From the NCBI RefSeq assembly GCF_002067135.1, contig NZ_CP020105.1, forward strand, positions 3,038,001 through 3,102,000: 64,000 nucleotides of DNA, written 5' to 3'. The position numbers and the translations under genes are program-made. Below the pieces are notes generated by a model. It was given only the letters and a program-made list of their open reading frames with translations, ran no database searches and was not told the DNA's origin. Below, in pieces: positions 32,921-40,505 of this stretch; within the stretch, counting starts at the first letter, position 1, and each line of letters opens with the position of its first letter. The stretch is from Spirosoma rigui. Its GTDB lineage: Bacteria; Bacteroidota; Bacteroidia; Cytophagales; Spirosomataceae.

Positions 32921-34543
32921 CTAGTTTTTACAGGCTATCGTGTTCGATTTCAGGACGTAGTTGAGCGAATGCTCGGAGTCGGCGCTGCCGGAGTTGAAAT
33001 TGACGCTGAAGCTGCCTTCGTAATAAACAGTGGCGGTGTAGTTCGTATTGGGCTTGAGGCCGGTCAGGTCGCCTTTGCCGTTGGCGAACGTAGCCACGCC
33101 ACCGCCGGTCTTGCCCGTTTCGGTGTAGAACACGCTAACCGTCGGGTAGACCTCAAAATTCTTGCCGTTTTCGCATACCGCCCGTACCGTGAAGGCTGCC
33201 TTGAGCCGGCCCGTGGGCGGGGCATAGGTGACGTCGGTAGTGCTGTTGCTGGTGTTGCTGAGGATCGTTGAGCCAAGCGGTGTTAGATCGACCGGGTCGT
33301 AAACCGTCAGGCGGTAGCTGCCCACGGGCAGATTGAACGAAAGCGTATTGCTGGTGCTGCTGGCGCGCTGGATCTCGGTACCCTGCCCGTCGGCTCCCTG
33401 ATCGAACCGGTACAGCGAATAGACATAAGCGGTGCCAACCGGTAGATTACGAACGGTAAAGGAAGTCTGGAAGGTTTCTGAGTCCATCGGTGTCGTCAGC
33501 GCGTAGTAGGACAGGTGTGTAATGGGAACATCGGCCAGAAATCCGTTCGATGCCTGGCGCACGGCTACGTTCCGCTCGTATGTCCAGGACCCTGTCAACT
33601 CGTCGTAACTGTATACTTCTAACTGGTCATTGGCTTTGATCCGCTGGCCAGTCGACGAGTTAAACGTAGTAGCCGGAACGCCCATCTGAATGGATGCCGG
33701 CTGGCTGAACGTCGATACCAGCTGACCTGTCGGGTTCCGCATCTCGATGGCCGCAAAGCTCACCGGGCTGAAAAGTCCTTTTACGTCACGTTTGCCCTGG
33801 GCATTTTTGGCCAGCGGTGCCAGTAAACCGCCGGGAAAGGCCTGCCGCGCGTCCGGAGACTGCCCATTAAACGCCATCACCGAAGTCGTTACGTTACCGC
33901 TCACCGGTGCGCCTTTGCTGTCTTTCAGCGTCGTATTGGCGGGGATGGTGACGGTCAGGGGCATGGCCGCCATGGAGCCGCTGGCTGCCGTCGTTACCTC
34001 AACCACGCGCTGGGTGGTCAGGATGCCCGATGCCGACGCTGGGGTCGACAGAGCACTCGACGCGACGCCCGCCGGGGGCGCATCGAACTTGGCCAGACGG
34101 ATCTGGAAGGGGTCGTTCAGGCTCTTGGTAATCGACAGGTTTATGCTGGACGCTGCGTACCCGTCTGCGTCGACCACCACGCGAATGTCGGCGGGGGAGG
34201 CCTGGGTTGGCTCAACGCCCGTCAGCCCGATGAAAATATCGCCTTTAGGTGCCTTGTAGGTCGTAAGCGCTTTGCCCTCGAACGTGATGGCGCGGCCGGC
34301 ATCTTTACCGCCGATCGTTACCTGGATGGGAATTTGCAGGGGAAGGCCGGTTTTGGCATCGACCACCAGACCCTGGAGCTGGGTTTTGGCGGGCTGGTAG
34401 TTCAGTTTAAAGATTACATCTTTCAACGGATCGATGTTCTGAATGTCTTTTATCGTCTGGCAGCCCACGACCAGGCCGAGGGTGGTGGAAAGGACCACCG
34501 CCTTGATCAGGGAGTTCGGGGAGCGTTGTGTCAGGTTTTTCAT
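32921..34543 (-). CDS. Large lipoprotein of unknown function with carboxypeptidase-regulatory-like start
   Basis: A 540-aa exported lipoprotein. The lipobox LVVGC puts the lipidated cysteine at C28. After it, a segment LQGLVVDAKTGLPLQIPI looks like a carboxypeptidase-regulatory-like or Ig-like beta domain. Several further beta-sandwich-like regions follow, rich in serine, threonine and glycine, and the C-terminus holds a single cysteine (IACKN). No enzyme motif is visible. It lies 30 nt downstream of a small outer-membrane barrel gene and is probably in the same operon, so the two may form a surface complex. Confidence 0.75.
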   Translation of the reverse strand: MKNLTQRSPNSLIKAVVLSTTLGLVVGCQTIKDIQNIDPLKDVIFKLNYQPAKTQLQGLVVDAKTGLPLQIPIQVTIGGKDAGRAITFEGKALTTYKAPKGDIFIGLTGVEPTQASPADIRVVVDADGYAASSINLSITKSLNDPFQIRLAKFDAPPAGVASSALSTPASASGILTTQRVVEVTTAASGSMAAMPLTVTIPANTTLKDSKGAPVSGNVTTSVMAFNGQSPDARQAFPGGLLAPLAKNAQGKRDVKGLFSPVSFAAIEMRNPTGQLVSTFSQPASIQMGVPATTFNSSTGQRIKANDQLEVYSYDELTGSWTYERNVAVRQASNGFLADVPITHLSYYALTTPMDSETFQTSFTVRNLPVGTAYVYSLYRFDQGADGQGTEIQRASSTSNTLSFNLPVGSYRLTVYDPVDLTPLGSTILSNTSNSTTDVTYAPPTGRLKAAFTVRAVCENGKNFEVYPTVSVFYTETGKTGGGVATFANGKGDLTGLKPNTNYTATVYYEGSFSVNFNSGSADSEHSLNYVLKSNTIACKN

Positions 34544-34573: not shown

Positions 34574-35284
34574 TTATAAGTTGTAGGATGCGCCGAGGGT
34601 AATGATCGGGTAATATTTCAGGGGGCTTAGGTTGCGCTGGATGATCGGCCCCTGGTCGGACGAAGGGGTTAGCAACCCTGTTGTTACAAATGAAATGGTC
34701 GGCGACTGCTGGTAGAAGAAACCAACATCGGCCATGAACTTGAGCCGGCCGCGGGTGTAGGGATTGCCGAAACCCAGGCCGATGTAAGGCGCAAACTTGT
34801 TGAAAGTGGCTTTGCCGTCGAGCGTACCCACCTCGTCCACGGTAAAAGTGATATCGTTGAACGACACATCCTTGACGGGCTTACCGAAGAAGCTGATCTG
34901 GTTGAGGTTGTAGAACGCCCCGCCTGTCAGCCGGAAGCCCGACTGGCTGAACGGGTAGTAATCGAACAGGAGGTTGGTTGTTTTCAGCTTAAGCGTATAG
35001 TCGAAGCCGATCTGAAGATTATCCGTATCCTTGCCACTTTTTAGCGTACCCGAGTACGTAAACAGATTGACTCCCAGCCGGGCCGCCAGTTTGCGGTTGA
35101 TCGAATGGCCAACGGCAACACCACCCCCTGCAGTGCCGGCCGAGAGCATGAGGGCAAAGCCCGGTCGATACGGTGGTAAGGACCGGGCTGTTCTGCTGGC
35201 TGGTCCCTGATCGGACGTTGCATCGGACTGACCATATGCAGATAGCGATGTGGCCAGTAGGAGCAAGATATGCCTGTATTTCAT
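34574..35284 (-). CDS. Small outer-membrane beta-barrel protein
   Basis: A 236-aa protein with a signal peptide (cleavage near SAYGQ, about residue 19). A mature barrel of alternating polar and hydrophobic strands follows, rich in Gly, Tyr and Phe: FALMLSAGTAGGGVAVG, FDYTLKLKTTNLLFDYYPF, FAPYIGLGFGNPYTRG. The C-terminus ASYNL fits a barrel end. It resembles OmpA-like or OmpW-like small barrels, but I cannot assign a family. First gene of a two-gene operon with the lipoprotein at 32921-34543. Confidence 0.75.
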   Translation of the reverse strand: MKYRHILLLLATSLSAYGQSDATSDQGPASRTARSLPPYRPGFALMLSAGTAGGGVAVGHSINRKLAARLGVNLFTYSGTLKSGKDTDNLQIGFDYTLKLKTTNLLFDYYPFSQSGFRLTGGAFYNLNQISFFGKPVKDVSFNDITFTVDEVGTLDGKATFNKFAPYIGLGFGNPYTRGRLKFMADVGFFYQQSPTISFVTTGLLTPSSDQGPIIQRNLSPLKYYPIITLGASYNL

Positions 35285-36841: not shown

Positions 36842-38743
36842 TTACAGCCCTACCCGCAGACCCGCTTGCCAGCCAATCCAGCCGGACCATTCGTGCCGGT
36901 CATTGCCAGGGCCAGCGGAAGTTGTCGGCAGAGCCGGCAGGTTAACCGAAGCCAGTGGGTTGTGAGACAGGTCATCTGCATAATAGGCATTCAGTGTAGG
37001 GCCGACCGACAGGCCCATGCGGGAGCCCAGCCTTTTTACCACGAGGGGGTTGAGCCGAAGCAGGAGATTGAGGGCCTGAACACCTTCGCTGGTGCGGTTA
37101 AGCTGATGCGCAAGCCCTTCCACGGCCAGCGACCAGGTCCGGCGCTCGCTGGTTTCGGTGCCCAGGCCGTAGCCGTAGCTCCACGTGTGGGTAGCCGGAT
37201 TCAGACCAGCAGTGAAGATGTTATAAAACGCACGGACACCTGTACGGAACGTGGCATTGATCGTTGTGACTTCGTTCGCTGATACGTCCAGATTCCGGTA
37301 ACCGTTCGTGTGGACGTAGCTAAAAAACCCGATGGGCGCTTTTTCCGACGAGTGGGCTACGTTCAGAAACCCGATTTGGCGACCGCTCACCACAGCCTGA
37401 GCGACGTTCAGAAATCCGCTAAGCTGATAGCCCGTGAGCTGACTGCGGGCGATGTTGGTGAACCCCGCTACCTGCCAGCCCACTATGTTGCCACCGGCCA
37501 CGTTGGCAAACCCCGCCAGCTGCATACCCTGCACGGTTTTCAGATTGGTATTCAGGAACCCGGCCACCTGCAGACCGTTCAGATTTCCGCCCACCGCGTT
37601 GAGAAACCCCGCTGCCTGTATGCCGTGGACAGTACCGGCGACTGTATTGACGAAGCCTGCCGCCTGCACGGGGCCCACATCACCGCGGTTGGTGTTGACG
37701 AAGCCCCCCAGCTGAACGCCCCGCGTGGTGCCGCCAACAAGATTGCCGAAGCCACCCAGCTGCACACCGGCCATGTCTCCGCGAACGAGGTTCAGGAAGC
37801 CACCCACTTCCAGTTTTCGCACGCCCAGCGAATACCCGATCAGGGCATTGACCGAATAGTCATTGATGATTCGTCCGCCCAGTACGCCGTTTGTGCCGAT
37901 GCCCGGCAGCAGCGATACCTGCCACGTTCGGTAAAGCGTATCACGGTCGAGGTTAATATCGGTTATCAGCTGTTTGGTGGACAGCGCCCACCGACCAATT
38001 GTCCGGCGGCTGCGGTCCAGAAACGACGGAGTCGCCGGGAGGCTGGCCGAGTCGGCGGAGGCAAACACGACCGGGCGCTCAGTCAGAACCGATCGGGTTC
38101 GGCTGGCCGAGTCGATGGGTAGCGGCCGGGTGTCCAGCGGGCTGACCGGTACGGGACGGGTCGATGGGCGGTCGGTTACGGCCGTGAGGTAGATGTTCTG
38201 CGGGTGCGAACGGCGGGAAGGTATCGTGAGCGATTGGCTGAGGTAGGCCTGTCGCCGGACCTCGAGTCTGATCTGAGGCAGGTCGGCGGGGAGTTTAAGC
38301 CGGTAGTATCCATATTCGTTCGACGTCGCCGACCGGAGGGATGTCTTTTCGAAGAGACTTACCGACCCGATACGTTCTGCTGATTGCCCGTCAATGACGT
38401 AGCCATCCAAGATGAAATCGCTGGCTTTTTCGGGTTCATCGGCCCGTAGCAGAATGACATGGTTACCGCGTGAACGCAGCCGGACTGACCCGCCAAATAC
38501 CTGTCCCAGCACGTCCCGAACGGGCCGGTTTGTGACCCGTATCGTCACCGGTTTGGTTTGGGACAGAAGAGCGGGATTATAGGAGAAGCTGAATTTGCCG
38601 GCCCGGCTGATGGCGGTTAGTGTCTGGGTCAGTGGTTCGTTGCGAACGTCGAGCGAAATCAATCGTTCGAGGGGCGGCAGGGATTGGGCCGCCAGCCCGC
38701 CCGACAGGCACAGGAAAAGGAAGAGTATTCGAATTGTGGCCAT
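36842..38743 (-). CDS. STN-domain surface protein with tandem 16-residue repeats
   Basis: A 633-aa exported protein. Signal peptide 1-20; STN domain about 23-100, the small domain that contacts FecR-type anti-sigma factors in TonB receptors; carboxypeptidase-regulatory-like domain about 110-190; a Ser/Pro/Arg-rich linker; then nine contiguous 16-residue repeats (314-457) of the form aGFxNxxxGxxxGxQx. The C-terminal ~150 residues look like beta strands. The repeat type recalls the LA_2272-like surface repeats (from memory). It is the last gene of a sigma-FecR-STN cluster and replaces the usual SusC-type receptor. ATG 38743 begins the signal peptide; upstream residues of the open frame are not needed. 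Confidence 0.8.
   Translation of the reverse strand: MATIRILFLFLCLSGGLAAQSLPPLERLISLDVRNEPLTQTLTAISRAGKFSFSYNPALLSQTKPVTIRVTNRPVRDVLGQVFGGSVRLRSRGNHVILLRADEPEKASDFILDGYVIDGQSAERIGSVSLFEKTSLRSATSNEYGYYRLKLPADLPQIRLEVRRQAYLSQSLTIPSRRSHPQNIYLTAVTDRPSTRPVPVSPLDTRPLPIDSASRTRSVLTERPVVFASADSASLPATPSFLDRSRRTIGRWALSTKQLITDINLDRDTLYRTWQVSLLPGIGTNGVLGGRIINDYSVNALIGYSLGVRKLEVGGFLNLVRGDMAGVQLGGFGNLVGGTTRGVQLGGFVNTNRGDVGPVQAAGFVNTVAGTVHGIQAAGFLNAVGGNLNGLQVAGFLNTNLKTVQGMQLAGFANVAGGNIVGWQVAGFTNIARSQLTGYQLSGFLNVAQAVVSGRQIGFLNVAHSSEKAPIGFFSYVHTNGYRNLDVSANEVTTINATFRTGVRAFYNIFTAGLNPATHTWSYGYGLGTETSERRTWSLAVEGLAHQLNRTSEGVQALNLLLRLNPLVVKRLGSRMGLSVGPTLNAYYADDLSHNPLASVNLPALPTTSAGPGNDRHEWSGWIGWQAGLRVGL
37373..37804 (-). 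repeat. Nine tandem 48-nt coding repeats (16 residues each)
   Basis: Inside the STN protein, residues 314-457 consist of nine uninterrupted 16-residue units, each opening with GGF, AGF or SGF plus xN and closing with GxQ(L/A/V/I) or a variant. Conserved Gly, Phe, Asn and Gln recur every 48 nt, while other positions and the third codon bases vary, so the array is old. A tenth partial unit (GFLNVAH) follows. Confidence 0.9.
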
Positions 38744-38805
38744 GATGCGTGTGTACGTTTGCCTGATGACCGGCCAGATGGCCAATACCCCCACGCTGTT
38801 TTCGT

Positions 38806-39843
38806 TCACCGGCAACCGTCGCCCGTCAGTATGCGGGCTTCGCCTTCGCGCTGAACGGTTAATGACAGCGTCTCGGCTACCACCGCCAGAATCGCGTCGA
38901 TGGATTCCTGGCCGAAATCGGCCGTCAGCCGGCAGCGGCCCAGCGTGGGTGCCGACAGCCGGATGTCCGTATCGTACACGTCGCGCAAGATCAGTACCAC
39001 TTCGGCCAGCGACGTATTGGAAAACGATAGTTTACCGGTCTGGTAGGCGAGCCGGTTGGCGTTAAGGGCTACGGGGCGCCGGATGGTATCAGTCGTCGCG
39101 AGGTAAGTTGCCTGCTGGTTAGGCGTCAGCACAACGGTCTGGCGGGGAGTGGCCAGCTGTACTTTGCCCGTTCGCACCGCCACCTGCACGCTGTCGCCCC
39201 TGGTCTGTACATTGAAGGAGGTACCCAGTACCCGCACGACTACGCCACCGGCCCGCACCCGGAAGGGATGCCGGGCGTCATGGGCCACCTCGAAGAACGC
39301 TTCCCCCGTCAGCGCTACGTCGCGGCTACTGTCGGCAAACGTTGCCGGATACGTCAGCCGGCTGTGGCGGTTGAGCAACACCTGCGACCCATCGGGCAGA
39401 GTCAGCTGCCGGGTGGCGTTTGTGCTGCTGGCCGATAGGCGCGCAACCGAAGGTGAGGAGTCGGCGGAGCGCGTATATCGCCAGACGGATACCCCTGCCA
39501 GTATAATCAGGGTAAGCATGGCCGCTACCCGGCCGTAGGTGCGCCAGGCGGTGCGGGTGGGTATTTGGGTCAAGGGAAGAGGGCTGTTGGCTGACGGAGC
39601 GACCGTTGTGTTGTTGTGCATTTGGGTTTTTACCCGCTGCCAGGCGGCTTCGGTATTGACCCGTTCGGGGCTGTTGAGGTGGGTGGCCGTGTGCCAGATG
39701 CGGGAAAAACGGTCAAACTCACGCTGGTTGGCCGGGTTGGTCAGCCAATGGCGTACCCGCTCGCCTTCGGCCTGAGAGGCTTCGCCCGCCAGGTATTTGC
39801 CCAGCAGGGCATCGTCGATCGGTGATTGCGGTTCGGTTGCCAT
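38806..39843 (-). CDS. FecR-family anti-sigma factor
   Basis: A 345-aa inner-membrane regulator. The cytoplasmic N-domain (1-100) holds the sigma factor. A single membrane helix lies near 104-123, then comes the periplasmic FecR domain (about 146-241, LPDGSQVLLNRHS and LTGEAFFEVAHD) and a C-terminal DUF4974-type domain (about 270-340). In known systems an STN domain of an outer-membrane protein signals to FecR, which then releases or activates the ECF sigma. ATG 39843 shares one base with the TAA stop of the sigma gene, so the two are translationally coupled. The STN gene starts 62 nt downstream. Confidence 0.92.
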   Translation of the reverse strand: MATEPQSPIDDALLGKYLAGEASQAEGERVRHWLTNPANQREFDRFSRIWHTATHLNSPERVNTEAAWQRVKTQMHNNTTVAPSANSPLPLTQIPTRTAWRTYGRVAAMLTLIILAGVSVWRYTRSADSSPSVARLSASSTNATRQLTLPDGSQVLLNRHSRLTYPATFADSSRDVALTGEAFFEVAHDARHPFRVRAGGVVVRVLGTSFNVQTRGDSVQVAVRTGKVQLATPRQTVVLTPNQQATYLATTDTIRRPVALNANRLAYQTGKLSFSNTSLAEVVLILRDVYDTDIRLSAPTLGRCRLTADFGQESIDAILAVVAETLSLTVQREGEARILTGDGCR

Positions 39844-40505
39844 TATGCCCCGGCCCCTCCGGCCAGCAAAAGTAAAAGTGGTAGATAGTCGCTTAACTCG
39901 GTGCGCAGGATACGGAGTGCTTTCCCGATCTGGTTTTCCACGGTTTTGGTCGCAATGCCCAGCCGCCCGGCAATATCTTTGTACGACAGCTCCTCGAAAC
40001 GGCTCAGTTCGAACGCCCGCCGGCACTGCTCCGGCAACTGGCCGATGGCCCGCTGTAGCCGACTGCTCAGTTCATCGGCCAGCAGGGACTGGCTCGGGCT
40101 GGTTGCCTGGCTGTATAGTTCGGCAGCGGCCTGCTCGCGGTGGGTCGCCTGGATGGACTGCTGACTGATTCGGTTGAGGCAACGGTTATGCACGGCCCGG
40201 TAGAGGTAGGCTTTCAGCGATGTTGTGATCAGCAGGGATTCACGCCGTTCCCAGATCGCCAGGAAAACGCTCTGGACAACTTCTTCGGCTTCGTCAGCAT
40301 CGCCCAGCAGGGGAGTTACATACCGGCATAAGGGGCTATAGTACTGACGGAATACGGTCTCAAACACCGCTTCGTTGCCGATGCGGATCTCGCCGATCAG
40401 GGATTCGTCCGGAGTCGTCTGCACAAAAGGAGCCGTTGTTGTCAGTGTCGTTGCGTGTTTTCGGTGATTTTTTGTGAAGACCACCGAAGCGGGATATACC
40501 CCCAC
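39843..40505 (-). CDS. FecI-like ECF RNA polymerase sigma factor
   Basis: A sigma-70 factor of the ECF class, up to 220 aa. Region 2 lies near residues 45-110 (AFE-like VFETVFRQYYSPLCRYV, DADEAEEVVQSVFLAIWE) and region 4 near 150-205 (LPEQCRRAFELSRFEELSY with its helix-turn-helix). The start is uncertain: the long frame begins at GTG 40505, but GTG 40424 (just before TTPDESLIGEI) fits the usual ECF start better. It has an unusual hydrophobic tail LPLLLLLAGGAGA. It probably directs transcription of its own cluster. Confidence 0.9.
   Translation of the reverse strand: MGVYPASVVFTKNHRKHATTLTTTAPFVQTTPDESLIGEIRIGNEAVFETVFRQYYSPLCRYVTPLLGDADEAEEVVQSVFLAIWERRESLLITTSLKAYLYRAVHNRCLNRISQQSIQATHREQAAAELYSQATSPSQSLLADELSSRLQRAIGQLPEQCRRAFELSRFEELSYKDIAGRLGIATKTVENQIGKALRILRTELSDYLPLLLLLAGGAGA

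Follow-up and report, generated by a model that had tools for sequence, protein, structure and literature searches.

Descriptions of cell-surface signalling through the anti-sigma factor FecR usually assign it to TonB-dependent receptors. In systems of the FecI-FecR-FecA type (FoxI/FoxR/FoxA, PupR/PupB) the STN domain of the FecR partner is part of a plugged TonB transporter. In a study on FoxA/FoxR, the signalling domain is reported to bind FoxR in the absence of a signal and to shield it from proteolysis (PMC11637429). Other layouts are already in print. VreA of the VreA-VreR-VreI system (PUMA3) of Pseudomonas aeruginosa has an STN domain but is no TonB receptor; it is described as mostly soluble, with a TolA/TonB-like C-domain and no barrel (PMC2729926). 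The Dma family (dual membrane-spanning anti-sigma; Bacteroidota), which is associated with ECF21 sigmas (ECF, extracytoplasmic function) and whose layout is described in Bacteroides, combines in one chain an anti-sigma domain, a transmembrane (TM) helix, a disordered tether and a C-terminal outer-membrane barrel (PMC13088901). Here we present a locus of Spirosoma rigui at positions 36842 to 40505 of a 64,000-nucleotide (nt) stretch of contig NZ_CP020105.1 (3,038,001 to 3,102,000; hereafter the window), which probably represents an autoregulated FecI-FecR-type module with a small non-transporter barrel as its outer-membrane partner, working by the mechanism proposed below. It resembles the FecI-FecR-FecA type in the family of its sigma factor, in a FecR with a TM helix and the periplasmic fold of PupR, in a partner with an STN domain and in a promoter-like site before the sensor gene, but its STN domain sits on a protein modelled with a beta-helix and an eight-stranded barrel.

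Gene order and genome setting

The window genome consists of one contig of 5.83 Mb. The list of open reading frames (ORFs) and the family profiles place a FecI-like sigma gene first among three consecutive genes of the minus strand, followed by fecR and the gene of the STN-domain protein. The last base of the sigma frame, 39843, is also the first of the fecR ATG, so that both overlap by 1 nt. An earlier note, made from the letters of the DNA alone, had already reported this order, the strand, the one-base overlap and the 633-amino-acid (aa) length of the STN protein, and the coordinates agree. The features of the locus, in window coordinates, are as follows.

39843..40424, minus strand: ECF sigma factor, FecI-like (TIGR02985), probable start GTG 40424; open frame from GTG 40505
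40477..40504, minus strand: promoter-like site upstream of sigma, strict pattern TRGGGGTA-N14-B-GTC-N-T
38806..39843, minus strand: FecR anti-sigma factor, 345 aa (Pfam and structural model)
38766..38793, minus strand: second promoter-like site, same pattern, 22 nt upstream of the ATG of the STN gene
36842..38743, minus strand: STN-NTE-beta-helix-barrel protein (NTE, N-terminal extension), 633 aa, ATG start (Pfam, structural model, fold matches)
38426..38668, minus strand: STN domain, aa 26-106 (PF07660, 33.8 bits; PupB fold match)
38165..38422, minus strand: NTE/carboxypeptidase-regulatory-like domain, aa 108-193 (fold matches)
38024..38164, minus strand: linker, aa 194-240 (model confidence mostly below 50)
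37304..37948, minus strand: 16-residue repeats forming a parallel beta-helix, about aa 266-480 (alignment, structural model, fold match)
36845..37303, minus strand: eight-stranded outer-membrane barrel, aa 481-633 (structural model, fold matches)

The genome harbors five other FecR loci. At each of them the adjacent protein (1109-1239 aa) exceeds the Pfam cut-offs for both plug and TonB barrel, and in two of these five proteins the Pfam STN domain also exceeds its cut-off. Of the six loci, that of the window alone lacks an adjacent TonB protein.

Architecture of the STN protein

The AlphaFold2 (AF2) model of the STN protein, based on an alignment of 43 sequences, has a mean predicted local distance difference test score (pLDDT) of 89 and reaches 97-98 across most of the repeat region. 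The modelled order is STN domain, SusC-type NTE, disordered linker, parallel beta-helix and eight-stranded barrel, without a plug, and no Pfam match to a plug or TonB barrel was found on the protein at E up to 0.1. Residues 2-19 form an N-terminal helix that by eye resembles a signal peptide. The STN domain is recognized by PF07660 above its cut-off of 28.4, and its fold matches the PupB signalling domain (6ovk_B; VIA-align Z 9.4, root-mean-square deviation [rmsd] 3.0, 79 aligned). The carboxypeptidase-like domain of the earlier note is borne out by fold and not by profile: CarbopepD_reg_2 stays below threshold (21.0 bits, cut-off 32.2), while aa 108-193 match the NTE of SusC (9hfj; Z 12.3, rmsd 2.4, 80 aligned) and a transthyretin-like domain (5aq0_B; Z 12.8, rmsd 1.6, 79 aligned) with VIA-align. 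The linker stretches 193-209 and 211-235 have a pLDDT below 50.

The 16-residue repeats noticed in the sequence are real. The glutamines at positions 328, 344, 360, 408, 424, 440 and 456 are (nearly) invariant among 43 relatives, and the beta strands of the model return every 16 residues. Tandem Repeats Finder detected no tandem DNA array, and the repeat copies have therefore diverged. Residues 248-506 match the parallel beta-helix 3p4g_B (Z 19.7, rmsd 2.3, 219 aligned), and aa 480-633 match the outer-membrane barrels of OprF (4rlc; Z 13.7, rmsd 3.0, 124 aligned), NspA (1p4t; Z 13.2, rmsd 2.6, 132 aligned) and OmpA (1bxw; Z 12.7, rmsd 2.7, 130 aligned), all by VIA-align. The earlier statement that a transporter barrel is missing thus holds with respect to plug and TonB barrel, but it overlooked the eight-stranded barrel at the C-terminus. 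Plain Foldseek on the model returned no match at E of 0.001 or less, and the VIA-align results are accordingly matches of fold and not proof of common descent. The loops of the modelled barrel are short except for one of about 28 residues (590-617); the side that these loops face is presumed.

Even-stranded barrels have both ends on the periplasmic side. Because the modelled beta-helix precedes strand 1 of such a barrel and the STN domain must be periplasmic to meet FecR, the repeats are most likely located in the periplasm together with the STN domain. On this topology, with the beta-helix N-terminal to the barrel and a periplasmic STN domain, surface exposure of the repeats was rejected, and the proposal that the repeats take up the input at the cell surface is not supported. 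An RTX-type calcium beta-helix was rejected as well. GGxGxD is the motif of the RTX type; the best fold match, 3p4g, is an RTX structure, yet no motif of this kind is visible by eye, and the likeness is one of shape only.

With respect to the kind of repeat, the protein is reminiscent of the LA_2272/VC2662 surface-repeat proteins (NF047436, NF047437). The relatives P0001, P0002, L140 and L147 exceed the NF047436 cut-off of 25 bits (loci and genomes are cited here by L and G numbers), whereas the window protein remains below it with 13.5 bits. The LA_2272 repeat family is named after a Leptospira locus tag; LA_2272 does not occur in the 15 papers listed out of 102 in a literature search. A sigma/FecR-like pair has been described in Leptospira, and its authors cite that the N-terminal extension is absent from all TonB receptors of Leptospira (PMC12155086).

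Sigma factor and FecR

The sigma factor matches TIGR02985 with 174.6 bits (cut-off 126.4). It probably starts at GTG 40424, which results in 193 aa, rather than at GTG 40505, because the latter abuts the promoter-like site at 40477-40504; the automated start choice in the relative L313 corresponds to the same GTG. FecR exceeds the cut-offs of PF04773 (73.7 bits) and PF16344 (38.3 bits). Its AF2 model (40-sequence alignment, mean pLDDT 88.4) comprises a helical N-domain (aa 11-77), a TM-like helix (100-126), a beta domain (about 133-248) and an STN-like domain (270-343). The periplasmic part matches PupR (6ovk_R; Z 23.0, rmsd 2.5, 204 aligned) and the Parabacteroides anti-sigma factor 4m0n (Z 23.5, rmsd 3.7, 208 aligned). 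Together with the likeness of the STN domain to 6ovk_B, both putative partners thus have a counterpart in the solved PupR-PupB complex, each in one of its two chains.

Linkage and co-inheritance of FecR and the STN protein

Matches to the STN protein are present in 71 of 148 genomes of the order and 43 of 79 genera, with at least three of those 71 genomes (G012, G110, G115) matching in STN/NTE alone. A wider scan with matches in 136 of 345 genomes includes TonB receptors that match in STN and NTE only and is not a prevalence figure. The closest named relatives are found in Spirosoma and Fibrella, and a scan of named genomes retrieved sigma, FecR and STN-repeat-barrel ORFs in order at all eight loci.

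A first census comprised the window and 80 fetched loci, i.e. the five other FecR loci of the window genome and 75 selected from the matches. The loci were selected by hand, non-randomly and including close relatives (L065/L066; L047/L360), and the counts are not independent. Among the 87 repeat-barrel ORFs of the census, 57 have an STN domain and 30 do not. FecR is adjacent to 51 of the 57 and to none of the 30 (Fisher p about 1e-17 for loci that are not independent). A sigma gene is also present in 43 of the 51 STN+FecR loci, and a sigma gene adjoins three of the 30 ORFs without STN. Among 108 fetched loci altogether, 67 contain STN-repeat-barrel and FecR genes together.

The FecR phylogeny is based on 109 rows, i.e. 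111 distinct FecRs minus two with short profile matches. In this tree 52 of the 53 FecRs with a repeat-barrel partner cluster in one 57-row group (Shimodaira-Hasegawa-like approximate likelihood ratio test [SH-aLRT] 94), the remaining five rows of which were initially labelled "none" or "STN_other". For 43 complete modules the pairwise distances of FecR and repeat-barrel protein are correlated (r 0.66, reached by none of 2000 permutations), and both trees have 18 of 40 splits in common, a value attained in at most 1 of 200 relabellings. Part of this shared signal is species history.

Promoter motif and candidate regulon

A common motif, GGGGTA-N15-GTC, is located upstream of related sigma genes. 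Its relaxed form precedes 19 of the 43 repeat-type sigma genes, where letter shuffles expect 0.23. The strict pattern occurs three times in the whole window genome, before the sigma gene, the STN gene and a DUF2807 (head-GIN) gene. As judged from sequence, the module thus has promoter-like sites before both sigma and sensor, with the motif enriched before related sigma genes. The third site lies 82 nt upstream of the DUF2807 gene (PF10988, 98.7 bits), whose product is lipoprotein-like by eye.

The strict scan was extended to 11 relatives chosen among genomes known to carry the module, and 30 of the 32 sites came with their locus. Thirteen of these 30 precede a sigma or STN gene of the module, covering 10 of the 11 genomes, and six precede DUF2807 genes (one of them L306 in G114). 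In 10 of 12 genomes of the family (the window genome and nine of the 11 relatives), a DUF2807 gene either has the motif or lies divergently next to sigma, a tally that takes in one relaxed site (G548) and divergent DUF2807 neighbours (G010, G500); no link of DUF2807 to the module was found in the other two genomes examined, G045 and G555. DUF2807-like ORFs are present in 21 of 67 module loci and in none of 41 other loci. The DUF2807 profile, like that of the receptor-like ORFs discussed below, was built from the same kind of loci (sources: L314, which is the gene in L048, and the module loci L357, L358, L360 and L363), so that a few of each 21 are present by construction.

Repeat-only paralogues of 349-410 aa that lack the STN domain accompany the module in L058, L060, L064, L071, L075, L088, L133, L135 and L138. 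The motif is located upstream of such paralogues in L071, L075, L138 and L268, and those of L071, L075 and L138 may be targets of the sigma factor. In G562 and G100 (L298, L325) another ECF sigma gene, different from that of the module, has the strict motif upstream as well, which suggests a sigma cascade.

Dma-like proteins and other related loci

The beta-helix-barrel is not confined to STN proteins. In seven loci (L085, L097, L099, L251, L252, L253, L262) directly behind an ECF sigma gene lies a one-chain protein in which a short N-domain leads, through a segment that looks hydrophobic by eye and a linker, to the repeat-barrel; STN and FecR are absent. The two frames overlap in six of the seven loci, and 241 nt separate them in L262; L086 resembles them and is cut by a contig end. 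The sigmas of these fusions group as a single clade (SH-aLRT 100) on a long branch of unsure placement, from which the window sigma (TIGR02985) is separate. A profile of the N-domain retrieved three of the fusions and 19 further proteins in 79 genomes, and 17 of the 19 have an ECF sigma gene directly upstream, the exceptions being L280 and L291. Four of nine scanned N-domain proteins have a Pfam outer-membrane barrel over the cut-off. The seventeen Dma-like proteins (L274-L279, L281-L290, L292), all from this order, have an anti-sigma-like N-domain and a hydrophobic segment by eye, and some of them a PF13568 barrel.

The one-chain proteins share the layout of the Dma family, to which they are likened by this layout and not by Dma or ECF21 models. 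The window protein itself has the disordered tether and the C-terminal outer-membrane barrel in common with Dma, but where Dma has an anti-sigma domain and a TM helix, it has a signal-like helix followed by STN and NTE, and its link to FecR would be non-covalent, whereas Dma proteins are described as one chain (PMC13088901). Two classes of anti-sigma factors may hence share one outer-membrane input.

Stand-alone repeat-barrel proteins outside the class (L143-L150) have no sigma/FecR match within the fetched stretch. A sigma-FecR-STN-NTE set at L270:3337-5715 (same place as L156) encodes an STN protein of 793 aa with a weak DUF5686 match (22.6 / 24.6 bits, cut-off 39.2) and no plug by Pfam at E up to 0.1, and is perhaps another non-TonB STN sensor. 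Next to the window locus, on the minus strand, lie an ORF at 34577-35284 with a weak match to a CarO-like outer-membrane barrel (30.4 bits, cut-off 300) and a 540-aa ORF at 32924-34543 with a weak fn3 match (22.9 bits, cut-off 25).

Proposed mechanism

In the mechanism that we propose, the barrel (aa 481-633) would anchor the STN protein in the outer membrane, and the periplasmic beta-helix and disordered linker would bring the NTE and STN domains closer to FecR. Docking would take place between the STN domain and the STN-like C-domain of FecR, and FecR would retain the sigma factor at the inner membrane. A changed state of the outer-membrane part, be it through failed assembly, outer-membrane loss or ligand binding, would alter the STN-FecR contact, expose FecR and lead to its degradation, a step modelled on Pseudomonas FoxA/FoxR. 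The freed sigma factor would then transcribe its own gene and fecR, the sensor gene and the DUF2807 gene. The signal may be a state of the envelope and not an incoming nutrient, a reading in line with DUF2807 as output, the resemblance to Dma and the shortness of the loops in the model.

The STN protein is the likely partner of FecR because of its linkage, the shared tree structure and the sigma-type site before its gene. The expectation of the earlier note that a plug-less STN protein serves this role is supported by the 67 of 108 loci. The module is real and widespread; architecture, linkage and promoter are the strongest parts of the case and the signal is the weakest.

Several observations count against this interpretation. 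Eight of the 51 STN+FecR loci lack a detected sigma gene, and six of the 57 STN repeat-barrel ORFs have neither FecR nor sigma adjacent; only one of these six (L082) is cut by a contig end, and L072 has 1.4 kb upstream. At L263, FecR and sigma stand beside a repeat-barrel ORF without STN according to the custom profile. The FecRs of L166 and L171 fall inside the repeat-type group and neighbour STN proteins with a plug by Pfam; partners have therefore been swapped and the group is not pure. Among the rows labelled "STN_other" or "none" that were checked with Pfam, L159 also has a plug-bearing protein. The repeat-type FecR of L098, on a long branch, falls outside the group, and the 47 TonB-labelled rows of the tree stem largely from few genomes. 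The motif is not private to the module: a version of it precedes two of the five TonB-type sigma genes, whereas 24 of the 43 repeat-type sigma upstream regions have no match. A reversed control pattern yields two matches in the window genome and 11 in the 11 relatives, compared with three and 32 for the strict motif, so that single distant sites are weak, and the relaxed form has 64 sites in 1.0 Mb of fetched loci versus 26 for the control.

Alternative explanations

A serious rival input is a separate receptor-like protein of about 790 aa, with a carboxypeptidase-like domain (CPD) and similarity to TonB receptors, that lacks the STN domain. It is encoded in 21 of 67 module loci, four of which supplied the search profile, and in two of 41 others. 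The STN-beta-helix-barrel protein could then be an adaptor that relays the signal of this receptor, which would bind or transport the ligand. The motif is found upstream of the receptor-like gene in seven of the 24 matches listed (L047 and L360 belong to the same genome; frame-based check), and also in Spirosoma L358, where the site is hidden by a longer frame. The receptor-like protein of L084, the sole one scanned with Pfam, has a CPD of 66.4 bits and a plug of 21.4 bits, just under the threshold of 23.9. Given the receptor-like ORFs of these 21 loci, sensing without transport is no more than one possibility. In 46 of the 67 module loci, however, the receptor-like ORF is absent from the fetched stretch, the best match in the window genome (C1:3629944, 44% identity) is distant from the module, and all three strict motif sites of the genome lie elsewhere. 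We consider the adaptor scenario unlikely. A homeostatic loop, in which the STN domain reports the level or assembly of the sensor itself and the module keeps beta-helix-barrel and DUF2807 proteins at a set level, seems to us rather unlikely: the sigma-type sites before the sensor gene and the repeat-only paralogues mentioned above, as well as the short barrel loops with the single exception and presumed orientation already given, would be in agreement with it, but autoregulation is equally normal in ligand-driven systems and does not separate the two.

That FecR answers a TonB receptor encoded elsewhere and that its linkage to the STN gene is accidental appears highly improbable. The plug-bearing neighbours of the repeat-type FecRs in L166 and L171 make swapping possible, and at three of the five other FecR loci the adjacent TonB protein has no Pfam STN over the cut-off, so that STN is not the sole sign of a partner. 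Accidental linkage is contradicted by the FecR/STN association, the shared tree structure and the promoter sites, and the five other FecRs of the genome already have a TonB protein of their own next to them. The autoregulated module with a non-transporter sensor barrel is therefore the explanation that we prefer.

Significance

The literature search, judged by titles and abstract openings, yielded no description that we recognized of an STN-beta-helix-barrel protein as partner of FecR. To call the locus an undescribed system, as had been proposed, is nevertheless too strong given VreA, with its STN domain and no barrel, and the one-chain Dma proteins: the module is a variation on FecI-FecR signalling, close to VreA and the Dma family. 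The modelled beta-helix and barrel of its C-terminal part set it apart from VreA.

If a widespread module carries its STN domain on a barrel that is no transporter, signalling and transport would be uncoupled, and through the occurrence of this barrel in Dma-like proteins FecR signalling would be connected to Dma control of the outer membrane, which was described only recently. This work supplies partners that can be tested, along with a promoter and a candidate regulon, and the module is a natural system for the question how STN reaches FecR across the periplasm, which PMC11637429 calls unclear for FoxA. It is a tentative idea, possible rather than probable, that one outer-membrane sensor of Bacteroidota, a periplasmic beta-helix on an eight-stranded barrel, feeds two unrelated sigma/anti-sigma classes, the split (STN-FecR) and the one-chain (Dma-like), reports the state of the outer membrane or how it is attached to the inner membrane rather than a ligand in transport, and drives DUF2807 surface proteins. 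If true, STN/FecR would be a general periplasmic plug-and-socket that accepts different outer-membrane barrels, of which L270 may be another example.

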